From Primula veris (Eukaryota > Streptophyta > Magnoliopsida > Ericales > Primulaceae), in the NCBI GenBank assembly GCA_963682055.1, contig OY821745.1:1743501-1807500 (forward strand): a stretch of DNA of 64,000 bases. The letters run 5' to 3'. The notes under the pieces are model-generated. The model did not search any database, was not told the origin of the DNA, and was given only the letters and a program-made list of their open reading frames with translations. Made by a program: the position numbers and the translations under genes. Shown piece after piece: positions 20,671 to 64,000 of this stretch (position 1 is its first letter; each line of letters opens with the position of its first letter).

Positions 20671-23600
20671 ATGTTAACCGTTGGAGGAATAGCGAAAGAA
20701 GAGGCCATTGGGGAAATAACCAAAGAAGAGGAGGTTGAATTTTGTTGGGGTGAGAAAAAGGATTCTAGTAATAAAAACGTGCAATTCTACAAGTCCTTCA
20801 AGTATGATGGAGTGACATACTCTTTATTTGATTGCGTATATGTTTGGTGCGGGGACGAGCCTGAACCATCCATTGGCAAGATCTTAAAAATGTGGGAGAC
20901 ACCGACTCACGAAAAGAAAGTGAAGTATGTTTGGTTCTTTCGTCCCTGTGAGATAAGTAATTTCCTAGGAGATGTTAAGCTACTCGAGAAGGAGATTTTT
21001 CTAGCTTGTGGAGAGGGAACTGGGCTATCCAGAATTGGTTCCCCGGTAAATTTATTACTCGCGCGTATAATATTTCCTACGAACTATCTATTTCTTTCCG
21101 GTTTTAATCAGTCACATATTAGTCATTTTACACTCACATATGTTCAGTCAAGTGCCATCGAGCATAGTGTGTGAGTAATTCTGTTATGATTACTTATTCT
21201 AGTCACTTATGATTGTATTAGGAGGCTGTTGCTGGAAAATGTAAAGTTATATGCATGAGTTCAGATAAGAGAAATGCCCAAGTTTCCAATGAAGAATTAC
21301 GATCTGCCAATCATATTTTCTACCGTACCTTTCATGTTGAAAGATGCAAAATTTCTGAAAGATTTCCAGATAAAATTGCTGATACTGAAGGTCAGAACCT
21401 ATTGTCTGGGTATATTAGTATTCAATGTGTTCAAAAGTTTTTTCCCAATAGTTTTGGCCTCTCAGATATATAGTTGTCAATGTCTAGTTCACGTTTCTTT
21501 CCTATTTCACGTCGTAATTTTCCATAAAACTTGGTTAATGTGGTATACTATGTAGGTTAAAGAGATATGCATATAGTCAATGGCTTTGTTCAGCATTATT
21601 TTATTCCCCCTATAGATCAGAAAACTATTTGCATATGCTCAATTGTCTGATCTAACTGCAATGTTTCTAGCATTACATTAATATGTTAGCATATGCAATC
21701 TTACAAAATATAATTTCTAGCACTTCGTATCTTGTTATTTTGTTGTTGTTATGTTATATGTTGGGTTAAAGGATTAACTTCATAGTCCTGGTATATTTAA
21801 TATATACTGTTGGGTTGTTATCAAGTTTATAACATTGTTTTATCGTTTATTTTACATACGGGTTGAGTACCTGTAGGCATACGTATCCACTGGAGGCCTG
21901 TTATCATGTTTTCTTATATTGCTGTATTGTTTATTATATGTAATCAAAGTACTTATAGTAGTCACATCTACTGGATGCCAGTTATCATTTTTGGTATGAT
22001 TGATTTGGTTTATATTAAATAATGAAATTCCTATCCGTTGTTCTAGATGCAGTTTTGCAATAAGGTTCCAAGTGGGGTTGGAACTGCAGTTTGAACCAAG
22101 TGTATAAGGTTTCAAGTGAGGTTGGAACTGCAGTTGGAACCAAGTGTATTAATGGACAGAAACTGTTTTAAAATTAAATGTACTTGGAAATAATTCACAC
22201 GCACATTTAACAACGGAGTTCACCTAACTAGGCTACGTCTCCGGGGCACTTACCCAGATTATGATATTATAAAAAGCTTACAATATATGACTCAAGTCTT
22301 AATGAAAAACTTAGACTCCCTCTATGTTTTTCTGCCTATCACTATATTGCTCCTACTCTATAACTATCACTTATAAATCAATGGCATCCCACCATTGTTT
22401 TTCTTTTTAAAGCTCACGTGTATTCTCTCTAGAAAATAAGTTCTTTATAATTTAGAACACACACCTTTACAAGCTTAAGTTACTAAGTATATAAACAAGT
22501 AAAAACAATCTTCTATCTTCAATATCTTTTGATTGCTTTTGACTTGGTTGATTAGCTTCAATCTCTCCAAGTATCACGAGATTCTTCAGCATGGATTGAC
22601 TCTAATCATCTTTGATTAACACCTGTTTAGTAACACACTTGAAAGTAGGAGTTAATCTTTTCCTTTGAAAGGAAACATATAAAGATATGATCTCTTAAAG
22701 ATAATATCTTTTCATAAACATATGAAACATTTAACTCCACATATCAATCAATCTTTATACATATCTTTACTGAATATTATAAGAATCAAAAGATTGAATC
22801 AAGTGATAAGGACAAGCATAAGAATAGAGATATATAAATTAAAAGGAAACATAACCTTATAAACTAATCTCTTTATATCTTTTATAAACATCTTTCCTTA
22901 ACACATTAGTATTCTCAATAAACACATATACACGTTTAAGACCTTATGAGAATATATCCTACATACTTTAAAACAAATGATTAGCATTAAACAATTAGTA
23001 ATGTAGAATAATGAAACAAGACAGAATTCTGTTTTAACAGCAGGTTGAACTGTGGTTGCAACTGAGGTTGCAACTGGTACTTGAAACCTGTCACCACAGG
23101 TTGTAACTTAGGTTGCAACCAGTACTTGAAACCTAATACAACTAACTTAGTAGGTTGTAACTGAGGTTGCAACTGGTACTTGGAACCTGTCAATCCTGTC
23201 TTAGTTATTAATAACAGTTAGGATTTATTTAGTAAAAACCAATAGACAATTAACAATATTTAGACCAGAAATCTGGTCCTAACAATCTCCCCCTTTGTCA
23301 TTGGTTTTGACAAATCAATAAAGTTTATAAATCATCCCAACCACCTGCAAATTCCATATCAGTAAGCTCCCCCTGTATGTTAGAATTGCAGGCAAAATAT
23401 ATAAGCACAATGTATGTGCACACAATTAGTTTTCAGACCTGTTTCAAGTTTAAAGCTTTCATACTTCAACAAGATATCAAGATATTTGCAGAAAGAAATT
23501 GCAGAATGATTAAAGCCAAACAGGCATAAACTTGTCTTAATACAGCAGAATTGAAAAACAGATTAAAGTCTTGAAAACATCAAAATGAAACAAAACATAA

Positions 23601-26600
23601 AACAAAAGCATAAACTTCAAACTTCACTCCCCCTATTTGTCAGCAACCAATGGAATTAGTCACTTGGAATATCACATTGTGGGGGTCTTTCTCTTAGAGG
23701 ATTCTGCCTGACCACTTCTTCATCTTCTTCATTGTCATCCTCACTGCTGATTGAGACACCATCACTATCATCATCATCCTCACTCTCAATAATGTCCACC
23801 AGCAGCTTATTGATTTGATAATCATCAGCATCCAATTCAGCTCTCCTTTCTTGATTATAAGCCAGCTTCTGGAGTAAGTACCACTTTACTCCTTTCTTCT
23901 TTGCTGAAGGAGCAGATGAAGGTTCTTCTTCCTTTTCTTTCCCTTTGTCCCCAGAAATGTCATTGACATGTCCTTCCTTCAGTAGTTTGGCAGAAATATA
24001 AAGAGCAGAGGGACAATCTGTGATTGGTTCATGAGTGATACTAATGGGAAAATCTCTATGCATAGAAGAGACTTGGCCCAGAAGTAGACTAGATATGAGG
24101 CAAGGGAAAGGAAGCAGAATGGAAGGTGAATTATCATCACTAAATTCCTTTATAAGATTAAAAATATGAAGGCCAAGGTTGATGGGTAGTGAAGACATAA
24201 TCCTGTATAGAAAAATAGCCATATCTTTGTTGACTTTGGAAGATTGTTTGGTGGGTGTCCAGTTAAACCTAGCAATTTTGTGCAACACAGCAGCACTTAA
24301 TGTGAGAGAGGATGTTTTGATGGAATGACCATCAAACCTATTGTTCTTTCCAGTTAGAATTAAAGCTAGAATTTCTAAATCTGGTTCAGCATTGTTGTCT
24401 ATAGTAGGACTGGGACAACACAGATAGTCATTAATCAACTTAGGTGTGAAATCCAAAGTTACACCTCTCAAAAACACTCTTCCATACTTAGGATTACCCT
24501 CTTCAAAGACACCACTGCTTAAATTGGAATAGAATTCTTTAACAACAGCAGGGTAATAGGAGTCTGCATAACAAACAGTTTTGGCTAATCCAACAGCAGA
24601 GAGTAATTTCTCAACATACACCTGTATGTGAGGATAGCTAACTAAATTGAGCCTTCTTTCACACAGAATTTCTTTACTAGCCATTCCTCTAAACCTCCTA
24701 TATGTTGTCCTACTCCAGAAACGAGGATCAACATTATTGTTTGTTGGAACATACTCAAACTTAGCAGTAACAGGGTCATTATCAAAATTCCTTCTAGCAC
24801 GCTTCTTAGTGCGCTTAATTTTGGGAGAGGAAGACTCACTTACCTTTGATTTGGAACCTTGACGTGATGGAGATTTATTCATAAAATCTCTGAGGGTGCA
24901 ATCATCATCAGAATTGGGGTTTTTAGAAGGGATTGATGACATGGTTGCAACTGGGGTTAGAACCTTACTTAGAACCTTGCAGTGGGTTTCTACAGCAAGC
25001 CTAGGGTTTTACAGAGATGAGAGAGAGAGAGTTATTCTGTAAAAAGTAATTGATTTTGGATAGTAAAAAGATGTTTGTATAAATAGCAATAAAGACCATA
25101 TCTTTTTGAAATTGGAAATAGATACATGCAAATCAATTAAGCAGCAAATTTAGGCTTAAACATAGGAAGTATTTAATCAACAGATTTTAAAAGAAAATCA
25201 TACTAAGATTACGCAAGAAACAGTTGGCAATAAGATAACTTCAGCCAATTAAACAGATAAACATTCCTTTTTCAAAACAGATTCATCCAAAATTTGAAAA
25301 ATCAAACATTGAAGCTTTAAGGAAATTTGACTTGATTCAAGATAAAAACAAAACTTAAACAGATATCTAGCTTTTAGGAGAACAAAAGAAATCTAGCAAT
25401 TTACTCATGAAAATATGTTTATCAAAGAATAACACTAATAAAGATTAAATTTTAGGAGCTTAAAATGAGCAAATCCGTTTTTATTTCTACACAAAAACTA
25501 GTTTGATGACCTCAGCAAGGAAAGAGTATAAGTGATGTCAAAATTTTACAAGACTTTGTCTTGACAGCTATAACAGAGACTGAGGTTTCAACTGATGTTT
25601 CAACTGAGCTTGCAACCAGTATTTTTAACACAAGGTTTCAACTGATGTTGCAACTGAACTTCCAACCAACTATAGAGAGTGTGAGGTTTCAACTGATGTT
25701 GCAACTGAACTTGCAACCATCATATAAAATTGCACTTTGTGCTAGCAACTCTATTACCAGAGAGGTTTTTAAGGACAAGTTACCTCACATCTGTTTTTGA
25801 GACACCAAAAAAGCGGTTTTTTCAAGACAAAAACATCATAGCTCAAAATAAGACTTTAACCTTAGAAATAAAACTTATTAAAGATACTCAATACAGACAT
25901 ATTTAGCAAAAGTATTCAATTAGATTGATAATGACATACCCCTATGTCACTTCTTAATGATTCAAACTTGTTTGTATCAAGGGGCTTTGTGAAAATATCT
26001 GCTAGTTGTCTTTCAGTTGAAACATGTTCTAAAATTAAGCTCTTTTCTTCAACTAGTTCTCTAATAAAATGATGCCTAAGATCAATATGTTTGGTTCTGG
26101 AATGTTGAACTGGATTTTTGGCTAAATCTATAGCACTTTTGTTATCACAAAACAGAGTTAATATCTCTTGTTTAACATTGTAATCAGTTAACATTTGTTT
26201 CATCCAAATAAGTTGAGTGCATCCACTTCCAGCTGCAACATATTCTGCCTCAGCAGTAGATAAAGATATGCAATTTTGCTTTTTACTGAACCAAGAAACA
26301 AGATTATTTCCAAAATAAAAACAACCACCAGAAGTACTCTTTCTGTCATCTATGTTTCCTGCCCAATCTGCATCACAGTAGCCACTAAGAAAATGGTTTG
26401 TATCTTTAGAATACCATAGGCCTAGATGAGGTGTTCCTTTTACATACCTTAGAATTCTTTTGACAGCTAGAAGATGAGGTTCTAAAGGATTTGCTTGATA
26501 TCTGGCACAAACTCCTACACTTAAGCAAAGATCTGGTCTACTAGCAGTTAAATACAGCAAACTTCCAATCATGGATCTATAAAGACTGGGACAAACATTT

Positions 26601-29600
26601 TTACCTTTATCATTTTTGGACAGTTTAAGGGTAGTACTCATAGGGGTTCTCTTCTCTTTACTCTCACTCAGACCAAACTTTTTAACAAGATTGTCTGCAT
26701 ACTTACTTTGGCACAGAAAAATGCCTTTCTCATTCTGTTTAACTTGCAATCCTAGAAAGTAAGTTAGTTCACCTCCTCCACTCATTTCAAATTCATTCTT
26801 CATGTCAGAAATGAATTCTTTTATTCTGTTATTAGAAGTAGAACCAAAAACAATGTCATCAACATAGATTTGAGCAATTATTATGTCCTTTGTGGTTTTC
26901 TTAGTAAACAGAGTTTTATCAACTCCCCCTCTGTTAAAACCTTTTTCAATCAAGTACTTGGTTAATCTATCATACCAAGCTCTAGGAGCTTGTTTTAGAC
27001 CATACAAGGCCTTTTTCAACAAATAGACATGTTCAGGAAAGTTAGGATCCTCAAATCCCTTAGGTTGACAAACATAAACTTCTTCATTAATCACACCATT
27101 CAGAAAAGCACTCTTTATGTCAAGTTGAAACAGTTTAAAATCATACAGACATGCAAGAGACAGCAGCATTCTAATGGATTCAATTCTAGCTACTGGAGCA
27201 AAGGTTTCATCAAAGTCAATTCCCTCAATTTGTGTATAACCCTGAGCTACCAACCTAGCTTTATTCCTGATAATCACTCCATCCTCATCACTTTTATTTC
27301 TAAAAATCCATTTAGTTCCTATAACATTTTTATTAGAAGGTCTGGGTACTAAAGTCCATACATCATTTCTCTCAAATTGGGCCAATTCATCCTGCATAGC
27401 TAAAATCCATTCACTATCTTCTAGAGCTTCTTTTATATTCTTAGGTTCTAACTGAGAGATATAACAAGCAAAGTGAACAACATTATTTCTTTTACCTCTG
27501 GTTTTCATACCTGAAGTAACTTCTCCTATGACATTGTCAAGAGAATGATTTTTCTGAGTCCTTACATAGCGAGGCCTGCTAGTTGACTGAGCATGAGAAC
27601 TTTCTTCTTCTTCTTCTTCAGATTCAGCAGCATTTTGGGTTTCAACTGTGGTTCCAACCTCAGTTCCAACCTCAGTTGTAACCTCAGTTGCAACTGGACT
27701 TCCAACCACTCTGGGACTTCCAGTTTGTTGTGTTTCTTCTTTCTCTTTTTCTGTAGTCTCAGACTGTTCATTATCACCTGTAATCTCATCAACAGTTTTT
27801 AGGTCATCAAATAACACATTATAAGATTCCATAACACAGTTTGTTCTTTGATTGAAGACTCTAAATGCTCTACTGTTCTGAGCATAACCAAGAAAAATCC
27901 CTTTATCACTTTTAGAGTCAAATTTACCAAGATGCTCTCTATCTCTGAGAATATAGCAAACACATCCAAACACTTGAAAATACTTTACATTGGGTTTTCT
28001 ACCTTTCCATATTTCATAAGCTGTCATGGAAGTACCTTTAGTAATATAAACTCTATTAACTATATGACAGGCAGTATTAACAGCTTCAGCCCAAAATCTA
28101 TTGGCAAGTTTCTTAGAGTTAAGCATTACTCTAGCCATTTCCTGAATGGTTCTATTTTTCCTTTCAACTATGCCATTTTGCTGTGGAGTCTTAGGAGCAG
28201 AGAACTCATGACATATTCCTAAGGAGTTGCAGAATTCTTTAAACCTGATATTTTCAAATTCAGTTCCATGATCACTTCTAATCCTAGCAATATTACCACT
28301 AGTGGAACCTTTTTCAACTTGCAGTTTTAAGCACAGAGTTTTGAATAGTTCAAAAGTTTCAGACTTATCCTTTAAGAACACTACCCAAGAGTATCTAGAG
28401 AAATCATCTACAACTACTAGAATGTACTTCTTACCACCTATACTGGCAGTTTGCATAGGACCCATCAAGTCAATGTGAAGAAGTTCTAAGACTCTTTTAG
28501 TGTAGATTAGACTAGTACTTTTGTGTATACTTTTGGTTTGTTTTCCTATAGCACAATCACCACAGACACTTTGAGTTTTAGCACTGAGTTTAGGAATTCC
28601 TCTTATCAACTCTTTTTTAACAAGCTTATCTAAAGTTTTGTAATTCACATGCCCAAGCCTTTTATGCCAAATATCTGCATTATTAGTAATAGCTTGATTA
28701 CACCTACTTTGAGGCAATTCTTTTTCAGCTTTTTCAAACACATAGCAACTGTTGGTTGATCTAACTCCAGTCATGATTAAATCATTGTTAAGATTAGTAA
28801 TTAGACACCTTTCTTTGTCAAATTTAACAGTCATTTCATTATCACAGAGTTGACTGATACTAATTAGATTAGCTTTTAGACCATCTACAAGAAAAACATC
28901 CTCAATATCAGGCATTCCAGGTTTGTTTAAGGTACCTTTACCAATAATTTTACCTGTATCTCCTCCTCCAAACACAACAGTGTTACCTGTAAGAATGGTG
29001 ACATTTTTTAGGAGGCTTGCAGTACCTGTCATATGCTTAGAGCATCCACTGTCAAAATACCAATCATTAGAAGTAACAGCATTCAAAGAGTTGATAACAG
29101 CTTTGTTGTTAGCAACTAAGATTGCTTTTTCTTTAACTTTCCAAACCCATTTCAAATTTTTATTGACAGAAGCCAACCAGGTTTTCTGGGAAATGTACTT
29201 TCTGTTCCTTTTTAAATAACACTGGACTTCAGAATGACCAGGTTTTTTACAAAAATTGCACAATTTCAACCTACAGTTATTCAGTTTGTTCATGGTTGCA
29301 ACTTTGGTTGTAACTGAGCTTCCAACCTTCTTTACATAAACCTGCGTTTTATTCCTGGTTGCAACTCTGGTTGCAACTGAGCTTCTAACCTTGTGATCAA
29401 AATCATGAGTTTTAGCTTTAGCAACAGCTTCAATAAAAGTAGTTTTTCCTGTACTCTTACCACCATAGTACCCTAGACCACTGATATCTTTGGATCCTCT
29501 AGAATATGACAGCATGTCATCTAATTTATCTGAAGCAGAGACATTCAGCAATTTTATTATCTTTTTAGTTTCAGTAAGTTCAGCCAGTTGTAATTTAAGC

Positions 29601-32600
29601 TTCTCAGTAAGATTTTTGACCTCATCCTTTAGATCAACATTCAGCTTGCTTATGATCAAACATTGTTTACTCAGACTTTTATACTTTTCATACAGAACAA
29701 GGTATTGCTTAGTAATGTTTTCATCAGAGGGCTCTTCCTCATCACTGCTATATGTTTCACAGGCAGTTGTAACTGGGGTTGAAACATGCTCACAGTCACT
29801 TTCATAAGTAGGTTCTTTTTCAGTGATTATTCCCATGAAATTAACAAAATTTGAACCATCCTCTTCATCACTGTTACTCTCAGAATCACTATCACTATGA
29901 GTGGTTATATAAGCATTTTTGTTTCTTTTTAAAGTGTTTGCACACTCAGCCTGAATATGACCAAAACCTCTACATTCTCTACACTGAATCTCTTTAGATT
30001 TGTATTCTTTGTTATCCTTTTCTTTGGAATTCCACTTTCCTGTAGAGTTATTATTGAATCTAGACTCTGTCTTAAACTGGTTATCCTTTTTCTGAAAGTT
30101 TTTAGATGAACCAGTATCATCCTCCTTTTTCTTATAAAACTTCTTGTACACCTTTTTTGCAAAGAAAGCTAGTTGTTCTTCATCACTCATTTTATCACAG
30201 GTATTAGATTCAGATTTCTTAGCTTGAAATGCTATTCCCTTTTCTGGTCTTTTATGTTTGAAGAATTTCAGTTCATGTGTACTAAGATTTCCTATGAGTT
30301 CTTCAAGTTTAAGATTATCTAAGTCAGTTGATTCTTCAATAGCTGTGACCTTAATTTCAAACCTTTCTGGGAGTGACCTAAAAGTTTTCTTAACAAGCTT
30401 AGCATCACTGTATTTTTCACCTAATGTTCCAGCTTGATGAGCAATGTGGCAGATTCTACCATTAAATTGTTCAATGTTTTCATCTTCCTCCATTCTTAAG
30501 TTCTCAAATTGGGTAGTTAACTGTTGAAGTTTGAAAGCTTTTACTTTAGTTGTTCCTTCAAAAGTAACTTGCAAAATATCCCATGCTTCTTTAGCTGTTT
30601 CACAATGAGAGATATACCTGAATACGCTGAGAGTTACACCAGCAAAAATCAAGTTTATGGCTGTTGAGTTGGCACTTGATTTTCTGTCTTCTTCAGCAGA
30701 CCATCTGTCTTCAGGTAAGAGAATCAGTTCTCCTTCATTATCCATGGTAGTTGGAGCCTCCCATCCATACATAACAGTCTTCCATGCATGTTCATTCTGC
30801 TGTTTGATGAAGGACCTCATTCTAATTTTCCATACTCCATAGTTTACTCCTCCTTCAAGCAATGGAGGTTTGTTGAAGGCGTTTCCTTCCCTCATTAAGT
30901 CCATTTTTACTAGAACACAGGATCCACACTAAGTAAGATCTAGTGTGAAGCTCTGATACCAAATGAAATTCCTATCCGTTGTTCTAGATGCAGTTTTGCA
31001 ATAAGGTTCCAAGTGGGGTTGGAACTGCAGTTTGAACCAAGTGTATAAGGTTTCAAGTGAGGTTGGAACTGCAGTTGGAACCAAGTGTATTAATGGACAG
31101 AAACTGTTTTAAAATTAAATGTACTTGGAAATAATTCACACGCACATTTAACAACGGAGTTCACCTAACTAGGCTACGTCTCCGGGGCACTTACCCAGAT
31201 TATGATATTATAAAAAGCTTACAATATATGACTCAAGTCTTAATGAAAAACTTAGACTCCCTCTATGTTTTTCTGCCTATCACTATATTGCTCCTACTCT
31301 ATAACTATCACTTATAAATCAATGGCATCCCACCATTGTTTTTCTTTTTAAAGCTCACGTGTATTCTCTCTAGAAAATAAGTTCTTTATAATTTAGAACA
31401 CACACCTTTACAAGCTTAAGTTACTAAGTATATAAACAAGTAAAAACAATCTTCTATCTTCAATATCTTTTGATTGCTTTTGACTTGGTTGATTAGCTTC
31501 AATCTCTCCAAGTATCACGAGATTCTTCAGCATGGATTGACTCTAATCATCTTTGATTAACACCTGTTTAGTAACACACTTGAAAGTAGGAGTTAATCTT
31601 TTCCTTTGAAAGGAAACATATAAAGATATGATCTCTTAAAGATAATATCTTTTCATAAACATATGAAACATTTAACTCCACATATCAATCAATCTTTATA
31701 CATATCTTTACTGAATATTATAAGAATCAAAAGATTGAATCAAGTGATAAGGACAAGCATAAGAATAGAGATATATAAATTAAAAGGAAACATAACCTTA
31801 TAAACTAATCTCTTTATATCTTTTATAAACATCTTTCCTTAACACATTAGTATTCTCAATAAACACATATACACGTTTAAGACCTTATGAGAATATATCC
31901 TACATACTTTAAAACAAATGATTAGCATTAAACAATTAGTAATGTAGAATAATGAAACAAGACAGAATTCTGTTTTAACAGCAGGTTGAACTGTGGTTGC
32001 AACTGAGGTTGCAACTGGTACTTGAAACCTGTCACCACAGGTTGTAACTTAGGTTGCAACCAGTACTTGAAACCTAATACAACTAACTTAGTAGGTTGTA
32101 ACTGAGGTTGCAACTGGTACTTGGAACCTGTCAATCCTGTCTTAGTTATTAATAACAGTTAGGATTTATTTAGTAAAAACCAATAGACAATTAACAATAT
32201 TTAGACCAGAAATCTGGTCCTAACAAATAACCAGTTGAATACTTGTAAAAATTCATACTAATCAGTAGTTATTTCAGTGGTGCATTATTTCAACAAGGAA
32301 AATGATCGGAATCTTAGAAGACCAGAAACAGAAAAGAAGAAACCACTAATTGTGCGATTGCAAGGGGTCGTTCCACCAGTGGGAATCTCTATAAAAGAAG
32401 GTAAGTGTGACATTCAAACATGATCAAAAGCTAATAGTAATTTAACTGAAAAAGATTCTTTGATATCCCATCTTTAATTTCTGTAAAATTATATTGTGGT
32501 CTGTAGAACCAAAGATTGAAGAAGGAAATCTACTTAAACGACGATGTTCTGGAGTTGATAGCACAACTGACCCTTTGCCAATGAAGAAAAGAAAGGTGCA

Positions 32601-35600
32601 CTTTAATTTAGGTAATCTACCAAGTTCTGCTCTCTAATTTTTACTTTTTCTACTATCAATCTCAGCTCTGTATATATTTCCGAGGTCATATTTAGTATTA
32701 TATTATCTTTGAATACCTAGATCCAGTAGTTGAAAAAATAGAGCAATCCAAGGGTTGGTCGGGTGAGAAGATTTCAGACACATATACTGCTGCAGAGGAA
32801 CATGGAAAGGGGTCCCGAACGTGCAATAACCCATTTACAGTAACTAGAAAACCAGATGAGGCAAGTTTGTATGTTTTCTTGCGCTGCAAAAATTATTTGG
32901 GTGTTTTGCGAATAGCCATATCAAACTTTGAAATTGCATAACCCATTATAGTTCGTCTAGATTTTTTTTTCACCATCTACTTCTCTGACATTTATGCATC
33001 GGAGGCAGCATAATTAGTGCTGACATTAATTTAATATAAAAAAAAGTCTGCTCGTCTTTTTTAATGGAGTTTTACGTCAAATTGCTCAAAATGATATATT
33101 TGTTAACTCTATCTTGAACAATAAATTTAGACCTATGAAAACAACCATTTCCAAATCAGGAACTCAAAACACATCTTGACATTTGAATATTGGTCATCTG
33201 GTTTGCAGAAAAATTATGGCATGTTAGTAACCGAAGTATACGAGTGTCATGTGCAAAAAACATGTAGTACTTGGGGGGTTATTTACATTTGAACCCACAT
33301 TCGTTTCAAAGTGCTGTAGTATCGCTTCACTGTGTTTTTCTACAAAAGTACCCTAGGCTGATGAAACAAATATTTATGTGAGCAAGATAACAATGTTGTC
33401 CACTACCCTTTCTCATGTTTAAACCTGATGTTGCACAACATACATTGAAATCAGTTCCAGTTGTTTAGGCCATTCTTGACATGCTTTTTCCTTTTGTGCA
33501 ATTTGAAAGTTTGTACTGATATGAACCATGAGTCATTTCATTTGAGTGAGAAATGGAAAATTGCCTAGTAATGCTTTGCCTTCTGGGTGTTTCATCTTTC
33601 TCTTTCTTTTTTCTATCGTTCTCAATTTTTTTTTTTTGATGCAGGAGTCAAATAAATGGTTCAGGGAACAAGTAAGTTATCTTTTAATGATGCTTTTGCT
33701 ATCAGTGCAAAACTTTGATTTCCTGTAATGACGATGAATCAAGATTTGTTTTATAAGTTTATATTTGTTGCGGAAAGCGCTGTCCTGCTGCAATTATGAC
33801 CTTAACAATTCAGAAACATGGAACGCAAAAAAATAGTTCTAGGAATACTAAGAATGGGGAAATTTTAAAAGAATTGGGCTTTTCTGTACGAACAACAATC
33901 TTTTGATGAAATTACTTAAATAGTGAATTGAAAACTGTTTAGGTAGTGGATTAAATAAAAATTTGTTTAAAATTCAGGGATACAGAATTGAAGGAGGTGC
34001 TGAAAATCAACTAAAAAGTTGTAGTTCAGTACCCTCAAAAAAGAAACCAATAGTTGACGATTCTGAACTGGGATTGCCCCGTCGTTTGGTGTAGAAGAAT
34101 TAATTACCATGTACTTTTTGCATATTTATGTGCCTTTTGGTTTGCAGCCTTGGGAAATAAAGATGCAGAGGGCTCATGAAACGGACGCTCTTGTACTACT
34201 GGAAAACCTGGATCCTTCTTATACTTCATCAGAGATTGAGGTTGTCTAGTCTCAATTTAAAGTTATTAATACTAGCTTTTGGGCCTTGTTTGGAATAACA
34301 TAAACTCAAGTAGCAAAATGAATAAAGGTTGTACGACTAACAATCAAGACCTCTTCAGGTTTGGGTCAAAACAAAAAGCACCACACGCACTTCAAGTTCA
34401 ATCAAACATGCTCCCTAAGTTACATACTTATTACCCTTATTTTACTTTTTTGACAGGTTAAAAGTTCTTTAAACCTTTCATAAGTACTCCCTCGCTCCCT
34501 TTATAAGTATCATGTGCGAAAATAGCACTTATTTATGATGGAAAAAATCGTAGCTAAATTGTTATGATGCATATATTTTACCTAAAACTTTTAATATAAT
34601 GCAAAATACTTGTACCTAAATTTGTATTAAGAATATATTTGCCAAGCCTATATGAGAATTCTTTTAATGTCCTCTTAGAATATCATATAGTATATGAGAG
34701 GCTTCTTTTTTTATAGTATCTGGTTTTAGATGTGGATTTCATCAATTCATTGTATCAATTTCCCCTTACTCTACACTTTTTTGTATGACTTCTTGTAAAA
34801 CTCTCTCTAAGTTGAACCTTTTATAGTGTATATAACATTTACAAGATACCAGCCAGTGATAGCCCAGTACAAAACATGCTGATTCATATCAAGTTTAGTT
34901 TTCAATAGTATTGAGTACAATGGAAATATCATCTTGTAACCCAAATAAATTGGAACTTTTCACTCCTTAATTGTGTCCTAGAAGTTAACTAGATACGCAT
35001 CTGATAATCCTAAACAAACTTTTTTTCCTATAGGACATTGTTTGGAATGCCTTACATCGGAAAGTTGATGCAAAGATGATTCACTGCAGCATACCCTCCA
35101 GCAGCATACCTTCAAGTTCTCATAATGGTATAACATTCATTATTATTTCTTTGTAATTATTTTGCTTAAATGGAAGCACTTGATCTCTCGTGATGGAATA
35201 CTAAATTTTCCATATCTTATCAGGAAAAGCCTTTGTTATATTCAAATCAAGAGAGGCAGCTGAATCTGCAATCTGCGAATTAACCAGGAAGTGCCTGGTG
35301 CTCACAGACGGAAGGTAGATTTTTCTCTTTTTTTAAGTGTTTCAAACTTTTTAAAGTTAGATAGCGGTGCTTTTTCTTTTTCCCGAATTTGTTAGAATAA
35401 CTAATGATCTTCTTACCTTGTATGTCTTTCTGTTTCTAGTGATCATAGGCCAGTTGTCGCTAGATATCTAAAGAACCTCAGAGAAAAAACAAAATTTTCC
35501 GGCCATCTTATAATTGACAGGAGGAGATATCAGAAGCAATATCATGATATGGTACTATTCCACTTTGTCCATTTACTTGAGCCTATTATATGATGTATCT

Positions 35601-36259
35601 GTCGATGGATTTTTTTAGCAAAAATTAATAGTGCCTCAAGACCCTCAACTCTATTTCAAACAAGTCAATAGTATAGGTTCTAATAATTTGTACACTTCCG
35701 CCACCAATATTTTTAATCTGGTCAGTAATCTACTTGCTGTTTGTAAAACCTTGTCACTTTGGTCTAAACTGGCGATGAAAATTGAGATGTACTAAAGTTT
35801 CCTCCCTCATTGTGTCAAGTGATGTGCAAATTAATGGAAGTAGAAGTACCCCAACTGAAAAGACCAATTAGTGTTCAAACTAGTAATGTTGGTAATACAG
35901 TGTATAAATTGTTAAAAGTAGATAGATCAATATACAGAAGTATTATTAACGCCCTTTCTTTTTTCATAAAGGGGCGAGCATCAACATCACATTATTCTCA
36001 GCCAAACAACCTTGAACATGAGCTAGCGTTAGAATGGTGTGCTTTGCAAGAGAAATGGACACTGTCGTGGAATGCACTGTATGAGGCAAGTAAAACTGCT
36101 CATTTGCACTTACCTATGGTTATAAACTTCTACCTTTTAAAACTTGAGGTTCCTATCCGTTATTGACAGCAACAAGATAAAGAGAGAGATGAAATCCAGA
36201 GCAAGTTAAAGATCCCTCGTGAAGAGCAAGATCTTCATAAAGAAGATGTAATTACTTGA
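20671..36259 (+). CDS. ASI1: BAH and RRM domain protein of the ASI1/IBM2/SG1 family (about 547 aa)
   Basis: Predicted coding exons: 20671-21045 (the exon itself starts at 20625), 21222-21390, 32278-32400, 32507-32611, 32721-32860, 33645-33671, 33978-34088, 34148-34240, 35034-35127, 35224-35314, 35440-35551, 35972-36085 and 36170-36259. The N-terminus is a BAH domain (VEFCWGEKK, YDGVTYSLFDCVYVW, VKYVWFFRPCEI). A basic NLS-like PMKKRKV follows. Residues about 360-455 form an RRM with ALVLLENLDP (RNP2-like) and GKAFVIFKSREAAE (RNP1-like). A charged tail ends the protein. BAH plus this RRM is the layout of Arabidopsis ASI1/IBM2/SG1 (AT5G11470), which works with EDM2 and AIPP1 to keep transcription going through introns containing heterochromatin. 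Two introns use GC donors (GAG/GCAAGT at 32861 and 36086). The second coding intron (21391-32277) contains the Copia element. The first Met is chosen because BAH begins soon after; an upstream exon at 20003 is possible. Confidence 0.88.
22023..23284 (-). repeat. 3' LTR of the Copia element
   Basis: 1,262 bp. Read on the minus strand it begins TGTTAGGACCAG and ends GGAATTTCA. It contains about three tandem 50-bp units built on GGTTGCAACTGAGGTTGCAA (about 23040-23193). It appears identical to the LTR at 30964-32225 in every stretch compared. Confidence 0.95.
23286..23296 (-). promoter_or_regulatory. Polypurine tract of the Copia element
   Basis: The minus strand reads AAAGGGGGAGA immediately before the 3' LTR. 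This is the expected primer for plus-strand DNA synthesis. Confidence 0.85.
23656..24942 (-). CDS. ORF2 of the Copia element, env-like position, plant transposon-type protein (428 aa)
   Basis: An uninterrupted 428-aa ORF lies downstream of pol in the same sense, where Sireviruses carry an env-like gene. The sequence has a basic Ser/Lys-rich start (KIKRTKKRARRNF), then a block with RFRGMASKEILCERRLNL, YPAVVKEFYSNL and FLRGVTLDFTPKLINDYL, and an acidic C-terminal tail rich in D/E and S. The middle block resembles the putative plant transposon protein family (Pfam PF20167 type) found in many plant retroelements. I see no signal peptide or clear transmembrane helix, so a true envelope role is not supported. 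Expression may need a spliced RNA, since 973 bp separate it from pol. Confidence 0.8.
   Translation of the reverse strand: MSSIPSKNPNSDDDCTLRDFMNKSPSRQGSKSKVSESSSPKIKRTKKRARRNFDNDPVTAKFEYVPTNNNVDPRFWSRTTYRRFRGMASKEILCERRLNLVSYPHIQVYVEKLLSAVGLAKTVCYADSYYPAVVKEFYSNLSSGVFEEGNPKYGRVFLRGVTLDFTPKLINDYLCCPSPTIDNNAEPDLEILALILTGKNNRFDGHSIKTSSLTLSAAVLHKIARFNWTPTKQSSKVNKDMAIFLYRIMSSLPINLGLHIFNLIKEFSDDNSPSILLPFPCLISSLLLGQVSSMHRDFPISITHEPITDCPSALYISAKLLKEGHVNDISGDKGKEKEEEPSSAPSAKKKGVKWYLLQKLAYNQERRAELDADDYQINKLLVDIIESEDDDDSDGVSISSEDDNEEDEEVVRQNPLRERPPQCDIPSD
24943..25915. other. Spacer between pol and ORF2 of the Copia element
   Basis: No ORF of note. It holds another cluster of GTTGCAACTGA-type motifs at about 25575-25725 (three units) and one just before the ORF2 start (about 24943-24965). 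This spacer would be removed if ORF2 is expressed from a spliced RNA. Confidence 0.6.
25916..30904 (-). CDS. Copia gag-pol polyprotein (1662 aa, intact)
   Basis: A single ORF without stops. Order: gag core (about residues 15-230); zinc knuckle CRECRGFGHIQAEC (308-321); a coiled-coil-like acidic region (about 395-455); a second zinc knuckle CNFCKKPGHSEVQC (549-562); protease with DSG (618-620); integrase with the HHCC zinc domain (HKRLGH...CGDC) and D,D,E core (HIDLMGP, SDHGTEF, PQQNGIVERKN); reverse transcriptase with the YVDD box; and RNase H (YCDADWAG, STAEAEYVA, FCDNKSAI). All catalytic signatures I checked are present, so the element may be autonomous. Two places in gag-pol contain VAT/TEV repeats encoded by the GGTTGCAACTGA motif seen in the LTRs. 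Confidence 0.97.
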   Translation of the reverse strand: MDLMREGNAFNKPPLLEGGVNYGVWKIRMRSFIKQQNEHAWKTVMYGWEAPTTMDNEGELILLPEDRWSAEEDRKSSANSTAINLIFAGVTLSVFRYISHCETAKEAWDILQVTFEGTTKVKAFKLQQLTTQFENLRMEEDENIEQFNGRICHIAHQAGTLGEKYSDAKLVKKTFRSLPERFEIKVTAIEESTDLDNLKLEELIGNLSTHELKFFKHKRPEKGIAFQAKKSESNTCDKMSDEEQLAFFAKKVYKKFYKKKEDDTGSSKNFQKKDNQFKTESRFNNNSTGKWNSKEKDNKEYKSKEIQCRECRGFGHIQAECANTLKRNKNAYITTHSDSDSESNSDEEDGSNFVNFMGIITEKEPTYESDCEHVSTPVTTACETYSSDEEEPSDENITKQYLVLYEKYKSLSKQCLIISKLNVDLKDEVKNLTEKLKLQLAELTETKKIIKLLNVSASDKLDDMLSYSRGSKDISGLGYYGGKSTGKTTFIEAVAKAKTHDFDHKVRSSVATRVATRNKTQVYVKKVGSSVTTKVATMNKLNNCRLKLCNFCKKPGHSEVQCYLKRNRKYISQKTWLASVNKNLKWVWKVKEKAILVANNKAVINSLNAVTSNDWYFDSGCSKHMTGTASLLKNVTILTGNTVVFGGGDTGKIIGKGTLNKPGMPDIEDVFLVDGLKANLISISQLCDNEMTVKFDKERCLITNLNNDLIMTGVRSTNSCYVFEKAEKELPQSRCNQAITNNADIWHKRLGHVNYKTLDKLVKKELIRGIPKLSAKTQSVCGDCAIGKQTKSIHKSTSLIYTKRVLELLHIDLMGPMQTASIGGKKYILVVVDDFSRYSWVVFLKDKSETFELFKTLCLKLQVEKGSTSGNIARIRSDHGTEFENIRFKEFCNSLGICHEFSAPKTPQQNGIVERKNRTIQEMARVMLNSKKLANRFWAEAVNTACHIVNRVYITKGTSMTAYEIWKGRKPNVKYFQVFGCVCYILRDREHLGKFDSKSDKGIFLGYAQNSRAFRVFNQRTNCVMESYNVLFDDLKTVDEITGDNEQSETTEKEKEETQQTGSPRVVGSPVATEVTTEVGTEVGTTVETQNAAESEEEEEESSHAQSTSRPRYVRTQKNHSLDNVIGEVTSGMKTRGKRNNVVHFACYISQLEPKNIKEALEDSEWILAMQDELAQFERNDVWTLVPRPSNKNVIGTKWIFRNKSDEDGVIIRNKARLVAQGYTQIEGIDFDETFAPVARIESIRMLLSLACLYDFKLFQLDIKSAFLNGVINEEVYVCQPKGFEDPNFPEHVYLLKKALYGLKQAPRAWYDRLTKYLIEKGFNRGGVDKTLFTKKTTKDIIIAQIYVDDIVFGSTSNNRIKEFISDMKNEFEMSGGGELTYFLGLQVKQNEKGIFLCQSKYADNLVKKFGLSESKEKRTPMSTTLKLSKNDKGKNVCPSLYRSMIGSLLYLTASRPDLCLSVGVCARYQANPLEPHLLAVKRILRYVKGTPHLGLWYSKDTNHFLSGYCDADWAGNIDDRKSTSGGCFYFGNNLVSWFSKKQNCISLSTAEAEYVAAGSGCTQLIWMKQMLTDYNVKQEILTLFCDNKSAIDLAKNPVQHSRTKHIDLRHHFIRELVEEKSLILEHVSTERQLADIFTKPLDTNKFESLRSDIGVCHYQSN
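30950..30961 (-). promoter_or_regulatory. Primer-binding site, initiator Met-tRNA
   Basis: The minus strand reads TGGTATCAGAGC two bases after the 5' LTR. It complements the 3' end of plant initiator methionine tRNA, the usual Copia primer. Confidence 0.93.
30964..32225 (-). repeat. 5' LTR of the Copia element
   Basis: 1,262 bp, same length as the 3' LTR and apparently identical to it. It carries the element's own promoter on the minus strand, so it could drive antisense RNA across the first exons of the ASI1-like gene or be a target of DNA methylation. Confidence 0.95.
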
Positions 36260-39341: not shown

Positions 39342-41139
39342 TCAGCATGCGGTAATTCTAGTGTCAGTAGAGATCAAGTCTTTTATTTCCGCCAAATGTT
39401 CCTCATTTGATATATGCAATGCATCCATAAGCTCTACCATCTTCAATTCATCTTCCCAACTTAAAGGACCTGAAGCAAACAATGCCTTTAAAGCACTACG
39501 GTACAAAAGTAAACATAGTCTGTGCTCAAACAATTCCTCACTTTTCTCTGAGTAAAACGTTCCTTTATCATTCCTATTTTTGTTATCAATAGTGTCATCG
39601 ATGCTACAACTACCCACGGACGATGCAACACTACTAGTGAGTGTATAATCAAAATCATTGGATTCAATTATATCTAAATTAGTAGCAGAAAAGCTATTTT
39701 TTGCAACATCAAGCATTGCATGCACAGAATTTTCTCCTAGTGTTTCTTGTGGGTAAATATAACCATCTACCTTTCCAGTTAATGGAGATGGATGCTCTGA
39801 ACTTCTCCGTTTTAGCTTCTTTTGAGACTTGTTTGTTTCTGTCACACCACTTTTCTGAGGAGAATTGCTATCTCTCTCTAAGTCAGTTAAGGAAACAGGC
39901 GACGCCCTCTTCAGTACCTTGCCAAAAGTTTGTCGCGAAAATGTATTTGCATTTATTTTCGATGGTGTTGCACAAGCTCCCTGTTGCATAAACCAAAAAT
40001 TGAAGTTAGTAAAATGTAAAAGTTTTGGAGTTCAAGCCATCGAAGAATTATGGAAAACTATGGAAGACAGGTTTCTTAGGGAATGTCTGGTTGTAGCCTT
40101 TAACCAAAAGTCCAAAAGAGCTAAAATTTTAGGTTGAAAAAAAAAATAGACGCACCCAGTTTTAAGTTCTAGCTTTTCAAGCCGAAAAACACCATAACAG
40201 CCTAAAGCTTTAAGCGGCGTTAAAAGCCTCAAACCAAATGCAATCCAGATTATAAACAAAAGAGGACAAAGAGCCTGAGCACAAAAACTACAACCAAACA
40301 AAGCCTTGGAGTTCATATTTATGAATATGATATCCTTATGCTTATTGATAACAAAGTCGTCAGCTTTTCGCTGTTTCAAGACTTTTAGCGTATTAATATC
40401 AATAATGTATTTACTTTTAAATAGTAAAAGCCTAGCTAAAGTATTTTGCCAATCACTGAAGATTAAGCTTCTTATGTTGTGGGGAGCAGAAAAGGTGTAA
40501 AACCCGTTAGGTTTCGTCCAAAAAGCGTTTTTTCGTAGACGAGTAAAAGCGAATTTCAAAACAGAGATTAACATCAACTTTAACTGGTCAACCAGACAAT
40601 AGAGCTAAGGCATATAATAATTCACCACGATAAATATGCATTACAAAACAATCTATACCAATTACCACATGATAAAATAAAGCTGAAAAACAAAGCCAAA
40701 ATATATACAAGTGAGAAATTACCTTGCCAACAAGGAACCATTTACCATCTTCCCATGACTGTCGAACTCTGAGATACGACCTATGGACTTCAAATTCCCT
40801 TGAATCACCTAACAATCTAACTAAAAAAACATGTTGATCCAAATATTTTACCACAGTAGCTGTTTTCCAACACATGTTATGGTACACCTCCACGTGATCT
40901 CCGGGGACCCAATCGTCCACCTCACCAACTGGTGGAGGGCTAGGTCTGAGGGACTTTCTAGTAACCCTCTCTGTAAAAGCATCGTTTTCCTCGTTAGTCC
41001 AACGAAAACTTACGTATTTTACCTTATATGTATGACCATTCCCAGATATTACCTCAGCACAATGCCAAGAGCCTGTTGGGGCCTCCTTTTTACTCAGTAC
41101 CTCTACGAAATCCCCTTTACGCAATCTCATGATACCCAT
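39342..41139 (-). CDS. Agenet (Tudor-like) and ENT domain protein (two exons, about 351 aa)
   Basis: Coding exons are 41139-40723 (139 codons, donor AAG/GTAATT) and 39980-39342 (acceptor CAG/GGAGCT), joined in phase 0. The N-terminus has two Agenet-type modules: MRLRKGDFVEVLSKKEAPTG with SWHCAEVISG, then WVPGDHVEVYHNMCWKTATV with FLVRLLGDSREF and RVRQSW. The middle is Ser/Lys-rich with an NLS-like KSQKKLKRRS. The C-terminus (about residues 287-344) is an ENT domain: YRSALKALFASGPLSWEDEL and LHISNEEHLAEIKDLIS. This is the layout of plant Tudor-like proteins such as Arabidopsis AT4G32440. By family, Agenet domains read modified histones or other nuclear ligands; the role here is inferred. The 742-bp intron (39981-40722) holds transposon-like fragments. 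The 5' UTR may extend toward 42700 with an intron. Confidence 0.9.
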
Positions 41140-43097
41140 GCTTTCAATATGACGCTTGAAATTCTGTATAATATGAGATAATGGAGAGGTAATTAGTACT
41201 ACAAGAATAAAAAAAAAAAAGAAAAAGTGATGAAATAAGAGACAAGATATGGGTTCTTAAATCTTAATATTAGTCTCTGCTAAGCTTTATCAAAAAGCTC
41301 TTAAAGCACTGCTCACAACTTGGCATAAACAAACAAAAAAGCGATCAAATTCAGTACATGTAGTTTTCCTAAAGTGGGCAACAAAGGATTGTTTGGTTAT
41401 TGCTTTTAAGCTCAGGGTTTATTTCCTTACAAATTGCAATGCATTGGTTGACTAGATAACAAACTAAAGACTTTTTGGGTTTTTTGGCCAAAAAAAGCTT
41501 AAAGCTTTAAAGTGGTTTAACAATAATTTTTCTAGCATCGCAAAAAGCAGAGCTCATTAGCTTAAATTCTGCCGGAAAACAAGCAAATAATATGAATTAA
41601 GAAACAACAGGGACATATATGTAACATCCACAGCAATTATTTTTATTTGTAACATCGTGTTCCGATTTTAACACAAAAACATGGAAGTTGAGCTAATAGC
41701 CTACTATCAATATCATTACACCAAATAAAATACTAATCAAACCTCAAAACACGGTTTTTTTTAATTACCAACCTAATTAAAAAACGCAATCAGTTGAATA
41801 AACTGAGCTAATACCAAAACCATTACACCAAATAAATCACCTATCAAACCTCAACACTTTTTTTTTTTGTATTCACAAACTAATTTAAAAACGTAATCAG
41901 TCGCATACAAAATAATTGAGCTTTGATACATAAAAATTAAGAAAACTTGAGCTAATTCGAGTACAATTACAGTAAAAAAGATACAGTTTCGTGTTACCTA
42001 GTTACGAACCCAACGCTTATCCTTGATTGATGGAATACTTGATATTATACACACAAAAAAAGTTTTTTTTTTAGTTTTATCTCTCGATATCGATATCTAC
42101 CCTTAATTAAATAGAATTAAGGAAAAAAAAATACTAGCCCTAAGTTCAAATATCATAATCTTTTACACTAAATTCCAATTCTACCAAATTTGACAACAGA
42201 GGGGCATCAAAATAAAGGATAAAAACAAAACAAAATTACGAATAAAATTTGACATAAACTAATATACATACATAGAAGAACATGAAACCTGCATACACAA
42301 ATAATTTCGTAAAAGAAAAACGATTATATTTGATTAATTAATAAGCTGAAAAAACCAAAACAATTACATAAACACACAATCAAGCAATTCAACAGAGCAT
42401 AACACGAATAATTTTATAAAAGAAAAACAAAATAAATAAGATTCAAATAATTAATAACCTAGAAAAACCAAAACAAATATACATATACAACAATCAAGCA
42501 ATCAAAATAAGCAAAAAATTTGAAAAAAAAAAGAAGAGAAGTAGCTAAAGATAATTAAAAATAACAAAAAATCAAACAATTGTATGAATACAACATCTTA
42601 TATACAAATAAATGACATTCTAATAGAAACAATTGATGAAATAATCTTAATTGAGAAAAAAAAAAAGAATTAAGAGCAAATTAGAATACTAACCTTGTTT
42701 TTTATTTTTATTTTTCTTTTTTTGCCGTGTTGAATAAGAAATATGAAAAGACTCAGTTTTTGACCTTTTTGAAAGGCTATTTATATACAGTTTTGGTTGG
42801 TGTATGTATAATTTTGGTTACTTTAGGATTCTATTTTATTTTATTTTTATTATTTAAAATAACGAACCGACTTATATACCCAAATGGGCTTTCTATTGGG
42901 CTTGACTTTGTTTTTCTGGCCTTTAATTGGGCTTGGTTATTAAATGGGTTCAAATGTAAGACAAATTGTGATATTAACTATTTTCCGAAGTCGTATCGAA
43001 GAAGAAGTTATGATTAACGAGCTCGAGTCGGTCGCTTCACGAGCCCCGTCTGAACATGTTTCATTTTAAAATATATTTTTTACTTAGATAAAAAAAT

Positions 43098-60594: not shown

Positions 60595-61182
60595 TCAATA
60601 ATTCACAAATACACCGGGGTAATAAACAAATCGCCTAGGTTGGTTTCGTCTCCATATCGGGTAATAACCTCCCTTAATCCTTATTGTTCTCCTACCAACA
60701 TTCGACACAGGTCTCATCTCCTCTGAACTCGCCTTCACATGATTTTCCCTTGCATGCTCTATTAACTCCGAATATGTACCTCTAAATTCACAATTCTCTC
60801 GCGAACATTCCCTTAATTTCGAGTTCATGTACTCGAGGAGTGCGTTGCTTGCCGGTATTGGATCTTTCACTATCTCACCACGGCATAAAGGACAAGTAAG
60901 CCGTTCTAATGGCAATGATATATAGTATTGGACGAGACAATTCGATAAGAGTGGATTAGTGTCGCACATATAGGGGCGACAGCCTTTTTCGTGAGAAGAA
61001 CATACTAAGAGTACGGGGTTGTGAGGAGACTCTAAACAAGCAACGCAAGTAGCTTCTTTACATTCTTTTTTGTCGACTTCCGTTCGTTTTTCTTGGTGTT
61101 TTGGCTGCAGTTGGTTTGAATAGGGATGCGACCGGGATTGGTCACATGTGATTAACGAAGACTTTTTCGTATCCTTTGGCAT
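60595..61182 (-). CDS. DUF1644 family zinc-binding protein (195 aa, single exon)
   Basis: Complete ORF from ATG at 61182. A polar N-terminus is followed by CVAC (46-49), SPHNPVLLVCSSHEKGCRPY (52-71), MCD, NC, CPLCRGEI (97-104), and CSRENCEFRGTYSELIEHAR (126-145) with a C2H2-like C..C..H..H set. The C-terminus is short and basic/aromatic (RRNQPRRFVYYPG). These Cys/His positions define DUF1644 (PF07800), plant proteins with a RING-like or C2H2-like look; some rice members are linked to salt and drought responses. Molecular role unknown. Same orientation as the two flanking paralogs. Confidence 0.9.
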   Translation of the reverse strand: MPKDTKKSSLITCDQSRSHPYSNQLQPKHQEKRTEVDKKECKEATCVACLESPHNPVLLVCSSHEKGCRPYMCDTNPLLSNCLVQYYISLPLERLTCPLCRGEIVKDPIPASNALLEYMNSKLRECSRENCEFRGTYSELIEHARENHVKASSEEMRPVSNVGRRTIRIKGGYYPIWRRNQPRRFVYYPGVFVNY

Positions 61183-61544
61183 GTTGTTGCTGGTTTTGCA
61201 ATATAGAAATAAGTCGCTTTACTCTTAGGGAGGAGAGAAAAAAATCTCAGGTTAATTATAAACTAAGGAAATTGTTGTTATGGTGTTGAAGATCATTAGC
61301 ATGTATATACATACGATTAAGTGGGGTACACGTTTAATTTATATCCTTTTAGGAATGGGATTAGAATTTAATCAAAACCATGTTACTTTTGACCCAAGCT
61401 ATTCACTAGACAGTACAAACGCGTGTTATTTTTTGAGACTTTTATTTACAAGAGTGGTAACAACAATAATATAGGTTTTAGAAACCATACATATTTATAT
61501 ATACTTGCATGTAATGTAACACAATCAATATCGAAAATCCTCAA

Positions 61545-62145
61545 ATCCCGATCCGACCCGATTTTTTAATTAATTTATATTTTATATAAAAATATAAATT
61601 AATTTATATCAAATGCAAATGATTAGAATCGAACATTGTACATGTATGATACAATGTAAGCAATCTATCATATGAACTACATTCCTTTTTGTTTTATATA
61701 TTAGTTATAATTATATAAGTATATATAATATACTGTAAATTTATAGTTTTGAATATATGAAACTATTAAAATAAAAAATATAATTAAATTAAAAAATTAT
61801 ATTTTTATTTTCAAGAAATATAAATGATTATTATTTTCCGATTATAAAAATTATAATGATAATTGTTGCTTGTGTGAATAAAACTAAATATTAAAAGAAT
61901 CTAATAAAAAATGTATCAATATTTGTACTTTCACACTATTTTTTCTACTGCATGTTAATTTCTTTTTTCATTTATTAGGAATGTTATTTGTAAAATAAGA
62001 TTATGTTTCATCTATGGGATCCCAAAAATTCGGGTTACGAAAAAATCAGGTCCCGACTTTTGTCGGGACATGATCGGAATTTTTTGTAACTTTCAAAAGT
62101 AATCGGGTCGGGGATAGGATTAAGCATTGTTAACCCACCCCTATT
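61545..62145. mobile_element. Truncated hAT-like element with GGGTCGGG motifs
   Basis: CGATCCGACCCG on the left and ATCGGGTCGGGGATAGG on the right are inverted. The right edge reads ACCCACCCCTA, like a plant hAT terminus. The interior is very AT-rich. The left terminus is missing or decayed. Confidence 0.45.
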
Positions 62146-62289
62146 GTACTAAAACTATTTTGGATAGATTGAATGCAAAATTCTTAACAAGACGTGGTTT
62201 TGGGTGTCTGCAGTCAAATAGAAACCCTAATTTTTGTACAGTTGACTTGTTGGTATTTAAGAACTTTGTAAGTGACCTATGGTACTAAA

Positions 62290-62483
62290 CACTACAAAAT
62301 AATGTTTGATTTAGTGAGAGTTAAAAGCTGTCACAAGCCTGTCGCTAATTTAAAAAGCTGTCACAAATCTGTCGCAAATTGACTAAACTGTCACAAAAAC
62401 CGTCACAAAAACCGTCACTAATAAACTCGTAACAAAAAATACCGTCACTAATCCCGTCGCTATTTGAATATTTTTTTGTAATG
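62290..62483. mobile_element. CACTA-type MITE (copy 2)
   Basis: 194 bp. It begins CACTACAAAATAATG and ends TTTTTTTGTAATG, with an AAA 3-bp target duplication (62287-62289 and 62484-62486). Subterminal CTGTCACAAAT, GTCGCAAAT and CCGTCACTAAT motifs are typical of CACTA (En/Spm) elements. No ORF, so it depends on an autonomous partner. Confidence 0.85.
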
Positions 62484-62765
62484 AAAATTCCCGAAGGTAT
62501 GATATATTAAAAATTCCTCAATAAAGTATATACAATAATATCAAAAAAAGTATGCACACCCAAAAATAACTTCAAGTTAGAATATTAGTACCTAATTATC
62601 AAACTATTTTTGTTCAAATTAGTAAAGAAACAAATATTACAAAGAATTATGTTGCATAAGAGGAGCCACATATACGTTTTTATTAACTAAAACACAAGAT
62701 GATAATTTGATCTAATCTTGTCCTCTTTTGTCAAGATCAAGAAATCTGTTATTAATTTATTTTAA

Positions 62766-63422: not shown

Positions 63423-64000
63423 CTTCGACTAATAATGTATCTACAATTAAGAGAGGAAATTATGAACTAACTGAAAAGATATTCTGATAAAGAATTATTA
63501 TTTTATTATTTCATTGCGTACGAACATGTGAGAAATCTGTTTCATGAAATTACATACAAGAAATATGTCATTTAGCAGGATGATAAGAAGGAGCCAAATA
63601 ACGCTGTGAATAATCATCACAACACAAAGATACAACAACAAAGCAATTAAGATATGTTTAGCAACATAACTAATAGCTAGGTTGCAACATATAATTAAGT
63701 TTAGATGCACTCTAATATATATGTTGCTAAAGTGGACGCCAAAGAATACCATATATATACTACAAGACATTGATGTTTTGTAGCTAATCTTAAATCAACA
63801 ATGTGCTCCATATTTCCAGTAGTTTTAAATAATTAAGAAATATATATACAGAAATTATAGAATAAGATAATCGTACTAAATTACGATACATTGAAAAATA
63901 GAAAAAAAAACTTAGAAATAACAACCTATCTAACTCCCGTATAAAAGCTCAATCATCATTAAAAGTTTAAAACTATTATTCGATCAAAAATCGGAGATAC
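63423..64000. other. Upstream region of the last DUF1644 gene
   Basis: AT-rich sequence, likely promoter and 5' UTR of the gene starting at 63422. I see no clear TATA box choice and no other gene. Confidence 0.5.

Follow-up and report, generated by a model that had tools for sequence, protein, structure and literature searches.

In Arabidopsis and rice, IBM2 prevents cryptic poly(A) sites within heterochromatic introns from being used as transcript ends (PMC10241880, PMC7145194, PMC11265718), and the loss of OsIBM2 leads to premature polyadenylation in such introns (PMC7145194). Arabidopsis ASI1/IBM2/SG1 (At5g11470) and rice OsIBM2 are composed of a BAH domain followed by an RRM and a C-terminal TSHxSQPN motif. 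The same arrangement, though with an RRM that scores just under its Pfam cut-off, is encoded by a gene of Primula veris that is the subject of this work. It is located in a window of 64,000 nucleotides, the whole stretch of DNA that was analysed (G000:C6:1743501-1807500, from a genome of 436.5 Mb in 34 contigs), and its second intron carries a Copia retrotransposon in antisense orientation. An earlier reading of the letters alone (the sequence-only reading) had described an ASI1/IBM2-like gene which, given the role of ASI1/IBM2 at genes with intronic heterochromatin, would need its own product to make a full-length mRNA if the element is silenced. The role that it assumed for ASI1/IBM2 is supported for Arabidopsis and rice (PMC10241880, PMC7145194).

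Besides these ASI1/IBM2 genes, three described systems are the closest to this locus. An antisense copy of the Copia element ONSEN/ATCOPIA78 is found in the 3′ untranslated region of GER5, where the long isoform requires IBM2, EDM2 and SUVH4/5/6 (PMC10241880); new full-length ONSEN insertions in genes are mostly spliced out as introns, and the new copies are methylated (PMC12112155). The window element differs from ONSEN in that its internal coding part, too, is nearly CG-free, with 314 CAG/CTG sites kept, and in being longer, with a third open reading frame (ORF). IBM1, known for an intronic heterochromatin sensor, likewise regulates chromatin in this pathway and has repeat DNA in a long intron, and 27 of 65 IBM1 orthologues have introns enriched in CHG methylation (PMC11265718). 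The window, in contrast, presents a single young insertion, seen in one genome, and the gene that carries it is related to the read-through factor and is not the demethylase. As in the methylation rheostat of ROS1, a transposable element at a gene of the methylation pathway could feed back on that gene; at ROS1, however, the element is located 5′ of the gene and methylation-sensitive expression has been shown, whereas the window element is intronic and its feedback hypothetical (PMC4380477).

The event is of an ordinary kind, a young transposable element in an intron, but its place is unusual, and so is the nearly CG-free element. We propose, tentatively, that this young Copia, which occupies intron 2 of the ASI1-like gene in antisense orientation, is likely still spliced out of the pre-mRNA, with help predicted from a second gene of the family at the locus C7. 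Among the papers listed by searches of the open-licence PMC literature, none dealt with an ASI1/IBM2 gene with a transposable element in its own intron, or with the second ASI1-like clade described below.

A complete Copia element that has lost nearly all of its CG

The sequence-only reading had given the intron as 10,887 bp and the antisense Copia inside it as 10,203 bp, and both proved exact. The element is a structurally complete Copia, with the features of Ty1/copia: paired long terminal repeats (LTRs) with TG..CA ends, a 5-bp target site duplication (TSD), a primer-binding site (PBS), a polypurine tract (PPT), and the integrase placed before the reverse transcriptase (RT). On the minus strand, gag is at 30.1-30.9 kb, integrase at 28.0-28.9 kb and RT (RVT_2) at 26.5-27.4 kb. 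Two identical 1,262-bp repeats with a matching TSD argue against a chance pattern. The size of the element, the length of its LTRs and the extra 3′ ORF are, we assume, only suggestive of the Sirevirus lineage of Copia. The splice sites of the intron were left untouched by the insertion. Between the element and the 3′ end of the intron there are 52 bases, which include a TACTAAT motif that we take to be branch-point-like.

There are no mismatches between the two LTRs, from which the insertion appears to be young. With substitution rates between 7e-9 and 1.3e-8 per site per year, this absence of differences sets the upper 95% age at 0.17 to 0.09 million years, and the element is likely a recent arrival. 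Its relatives were sought by an LTR search in which the best 40 of 2,617 first-look candidates were scored, all of them with 99-100% identity and including the two LTRs of the window. Ten further LTR pairs were recovered from these 40, a sample biased to near-identical copies, and they differ by 0-2 substitutions each (0 in four of the ten); therefore, the family moved recently. A 5-bp TSD occurs at a fixed offset in eight of the ten pairs, and the other two present a shifted LTR length. The substitutions total 8 in the 10 pairs, too few for their context to be read as a methylation footprint.

The element contains 27 CpG in its 10,203 bp, an observed/expected ratio of 0.09, against 0.45 to 1.55 for the rest of the window taken in 2.5-kb steps, and its longest CpG-free run reaches 1.8 kb, against 0.54 kb elsewhere in the window. 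In gag-pol there are 4 CpG, where 1,000 synonymous draws gave a mean of 152 and a minimum of 114; the draws followed the codon usage of the host coding sequence (CDS) and of five other window ORFs, taken from stop to stop and some perhaps including intron bases. Only 1 of the 72 arginine codons of gag-pol is CGN, NCG occurs once against 75 NCA, and CG bridging two codons occurs 2 times against 61 expected. CpG is also absent across 1 kb of RT in all six family copies, namely the window element and five others, which are 99.6-99.9% identical to it and hence not independent.

As a control, other Copia RT stretches of the genome were hand-picked from 150 scored of 6,658 first-look candidates. All 14 contain 13-35 CpG per about 0.73 kb, with ratios of 0.55 to 1.23, although several resemble one family and the number of independent families is thus lower than 14. 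The nearest of them, with 67% amino-acid identity, has a ratio of 1.03, and a Copia-gag-like ORF (labelled by eye) adjoining the C7 gene has 0.71. Since the family copies are CG-free while the control stretches keep their CpG, the loss is a trait of this element family and not of the Copia of the genome at large. This shows that near-complete loss of CG in a plant Copia family is compatible with recent movement.

An excess of TG (1.39 in gag-pol, 1.26 in the host CDS) fits an old deamination of methylated CG, restrained by selection on the protein. Selection to escape CG methylation would leave an alike pattern, and the data do not separate the two. As hardly any CG is available for maintenance methylation while the CHG sites remain, any silencing of the intron would have to rest mostly on CHG/CHH methylation and on dimethylation of histone H3 lysine 9 (H3K9me2), marks linked to the ASI1/EDM2 pathway. 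An insert offering CHG/CHH sites and hardly any CG, within the own family of the pathway, would naturally test the need for CG in ASI1/EDM2 read-through.

The host gene and its place in the ASI1 family

The host gene (20671-36259, plus strand) was modelled with 12 coding exons, which encode 507 amino acids and a single terminal stop; its introns after exons 5 and 11 are GC-AG. The BAH domain of the protein reaches 44.6 bits with Pfam PF01426 (cut-off 30.8), matches the BAH of PDB 7xpj/7xpk with an E-value of about 4e-44, and is identical to Arabidopsis ASI1 in 73 of 146 positions. The sequence-only reading had placed the BAH exons within 20671-21390, and the two exons found there do encode this domain. 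It had also placed RRM exons from 32278 onward; the RRM is indeed found after the intron, but 32278-33671 encodes a linker and the RRM itself is in 34148-35551. The RRM scores 19.4 bits in Pfam, just below the cut-off of 20.7, and the RRM/C-terminal part aligns to all nine relatives having the region, with 68-101 of 158-176 positions identical. Eight of these relatives come from databases, and the ninth is the C7 protein, a hand-built model. A 13-exon model with an additional exon at 33978-34088 (37 codons) was rejected, since this exon has no counterpart in any of the eight aligned database relatives and skipping it restores WFREQ-PWE in frame. The start of exon 10 was moved from 35440 to 35449 to fit the conserved GRP motif.

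A genome search with the window protein revealed, besides its own exons, the two loci C7 and C2, as well as an isolated fragment of an ASI1-family exon 2 at G000:C2:7180975-7181124. In the C7 locus, on the minus strand, nine GT-AG exons join in frame into 624 codons without a stop, spanning the BAH domain, a long linker exon, the ESNKWF micro-exon, the RRM and the SQPN motif; the stops present in some raw search matches fall in introns of the joined model. Intron 2 of C7, equivalent to the insert-bearing intron, has 112 bp and is without the element. The C2 copy (G000:C2:4337756-4339727) comprises three exons to its own stop, encoding BAH and linker (318 amino acids), with an intron 2 of 421 bp. 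A search with 120 homologue queries (E 0.001) found no RRM exon in the 46 kb following the C2 copy, and the query P0035 found no RRM exons genome-wide beyond those of C6, the contig of the window, and C7. Judged by its sequence, C2 is a natural BAH-plus-linker paralogue, a truncated ASI1-type copy. Two long tandem arrays, with spacings near 155 and 110 bp, are located about 6 kb from it (L012:1196-8508).

Phylogenetic trees were built with a 544-amino-acid window model that still included the 37 codons of the rejected exon, after removal of the columns filled in <60% of the rows. A quick tree of 119 rows, consisting of 116 of 120 homologue proteins (four were left out) and the three own loci, already separated the window gene from C7 and C2. 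A careful tree comprised 49 rows (45 hand-chosen from 229 proteins, plus window, C7, C2 and a PDB BAH); in it, the window gene was included in a clade of 20 rows (100/99), and within it in a group of 12 rows whose named members are all asterids (95/91), so that the host is probably an asterid. Arabidopsis ASI1, C7 and C2 were grouped in the other clade, of 24 rows (99/97). Eight genera, Tetracentron, Morus, Senna, Cornus, Lonicera, Nyssa, Camellia and Lycium, have a row in both clades, which indicates that the ASI1 family was duplicated long ago in eudicots. The window clade includes no Arabidopsis or monocot rows in these trees, and it appears to be absent from Arabidopsis, for which a single SG1 gene is described (PMC3880313).

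Because the tree groups Arabidopsis ASI1 with C7 and C2, these two loci are classified as ASI1-type, C2 in truncated form, and the window gene, from its position in the tree, as an ASI1-like paralogue. It does not group with Arabidopsis ASI1, as an ASI1/IBM2 orthologue would; it is a BAH+RRM member of the ASI1 family but not the ASI1 orthologue.

Possible fates of transcripts crossing the insertion

With a long transposable element in an intron and an open frame, the window gene offers, in that intron, a good candidate for IBM2-type read-through. In the explanation that we tentatively prefer, the element would become CHG/CHH-methylated and marked by H3K9me2, and an ASI1-AIPP1-EDM2 complex with the C7 protein as its ASI1 component would suppress cryptic polyadenylation in intron 2. 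The pathway would then act on the window gene in trans, with no more than partial help from the gene's own product, and some transcripts would end early, lowering the dose of full-length protein.

Some observations weigh against this proposal. The last exon of the C7 gene was not located. The branch of the window gene is long (0.90), and constraint on the gene may be weak; the C7/C2 lineage, however, is long as well (0.39 plus 0.41 and 0.54), so that the long branch alone is no sign of decay. A nearly CG-free element may also be only sparsely methylated and be read through without any dedicated factor. Moreover, the Arabidopsis CG-methylation mutant met1 also lowers the long isoform of IBM1 (PMC11265718), and CG methylation may for this reason matter to the ASI1/EDM2 pathway.

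It is conceivable, though rather unlikely, that the insert is a neutral passenger, merely a long intron that is spliced without help and has no effect on dose. The intact GT-AG ends and TACTAAT, with the element ending short of the 3′ splice site, agree with this, as does the splicing of most new full-length ONSEN insertions. On the other hand, seven ONSEN insertions were partially exonised and yielded short transcripts (PMC12112155), and genes with heterochromatic transposable elements in introns often require IBM2 in Arabidopsis and rice (PMC10241880, PMC7145194).

We consider it improbable that the insertion is a damaging one, in which transcripts polyadenylated too early, or antisense ones started from the LTR, would have left a weak allele covered by the C7 gene. 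In favour of this, a complete element in antisense orientation would have its own promoter directed towards exons 1-2, and paralogues exist. AATAAA hexamers are present in intron 2 on the host strand (9) and on the other (14), bare counts without a control that say little. Against damage, all modelled exons are open, a weak point, as so recent an insertion leaves no time for decay to become visible.

The self-regulating loop of the sequence-only reading, in which the ASI1-like product is required to read through its own insert and a BAH-only product competes, is very unlikely. The window gene has a BAH part and an RRM part, each of which aligns to relatives, and the BAH-only frame of about 208 amino acids that it had predicted to end near 21473 exists, as read-through of the exon-2 donor was computed to give 208 amino acids with a stop at 21471-21473. 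However, the window gene is not the ASI1 orthologue, the action of proteins of its clade on introns is only hypothetical, and in Arabidopsis the sg1-1 stop, which removes the RRM, gives a mutant phenotype (PMC3880313). In addition, a separate ASI1-type gene with BAH and RRM, C7, is open and without an insert at this intron, so the loop need not be closed, and read-through of the host gene probably takes place without a need for its own product. The gene is thus one of several putatively functional copies, the very situation in which the sequence-only reading would have given up the loop, provided that the function of C7 is judged by its open exons. Partial self-help is possible if proteins of the window clade join the complex.

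Very unlikely, too, is a further version in which the CG-free, CAG/CTG-rich insert made the ASI1-like gene a MET1-independent sensor of CHG methylation and H3K9me2 only, with the C7 ASI1, and perhaps the own product, setting how much full-length protein is made relative to the BAH-only form, and with the natural RRM-less copy C2 taking part, so that the pathway would meter its own dose.

Feature coordinates and neighbouring sequences

Table 1. Positions of the host gene exons and of the parts of the Copia element in the window.
Feature	Position	Strand	Remarks
Coding exon 1	20671..21045	+	Start codon, first part of BAH domain (Pfam BAH)
Coding exon 2	21222..21390	+	Rest of BAH; 169 bp, equal in length and phase to exon 2 in C7 and C2 copies
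Intron 2	21391..32277	+	10,887 bp, GT-AG; 679 bp minus element and one TSD
Read-through tail past exon 2 (hypothetical)	21391..21473	+	Would close BAH-only protein of 208 amino acids
TSD AATAA, left	22018..22022	.
Copia LTR retrotransposon	22023..32225	-	Antisense to host gene; 10,203 bp, 27 CpG
3′ LTR (left end)	22023..23284	-	Identical to other LTR
Purine-rich tract beside 3′ LTR	23285..23315	-	Presumably PPT-like
Third ORF	23656..25008	-	450 amino acids stop to stop, PF20167 (putative plant transposon protein)
gag-pol	25916..30928	-	One frame, no inner stop; gag PF14223, integrase PF00665, RT PF07727; 4 CpG, 152 expected
PBS TGGTATCAGAGC	30935..30963	-	Adjoins 5′ LTR; presumably of initiator-Met tRNA type
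5′ LTR (right end)	30964..32225	-
TSD AATAA, right	32226..32230	.
TACTAAT, presumably branch-point-like	32256..32262	+	Between element and 3′ splice site
Coding exon 3 (linker)	32278..32400	+
Coding exon 4 (linker)	32507..32611	+
Coding exon 5 (linker)	32721..32860	+	Then GC-AG intron
Coding exon 6 (ESNKWFREQ micro-exon)	33645..33671	+	27 bp, as in C7 copy
Coding exon 7 (RRM begins, PWEIKM...)	34148..34240	+	Alignment to relatives
Coding exon 8 (RRM)	35034..35127	+	Alignment to relatives
Coding exon 9 (RRM)	35224..35314	+	Alignment to relatives
Coding exon 10 (RRM end)	35449..35551	+	Start set by conserved GRP motif
Coding exon 11 (conserved TSHxSQPN motif)	35972..36085	+	Then GC-AG intron
Coding exon 12 and stop	36170..36259	+

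An Rfam scan of the window gave no family reaching the gathering score. Another chromatin-type gene adjoins the ASI1-like gene, as minus-strand ORFs with ENT and Agenet domains are found at 39345-41256. Two similar minus-strand ORFs of 207 and 220 amino acids, at 60595-63428, have in common the stretch LLVCSxHEKGCRxxMC and, by eye, form an apparent tandem pair.
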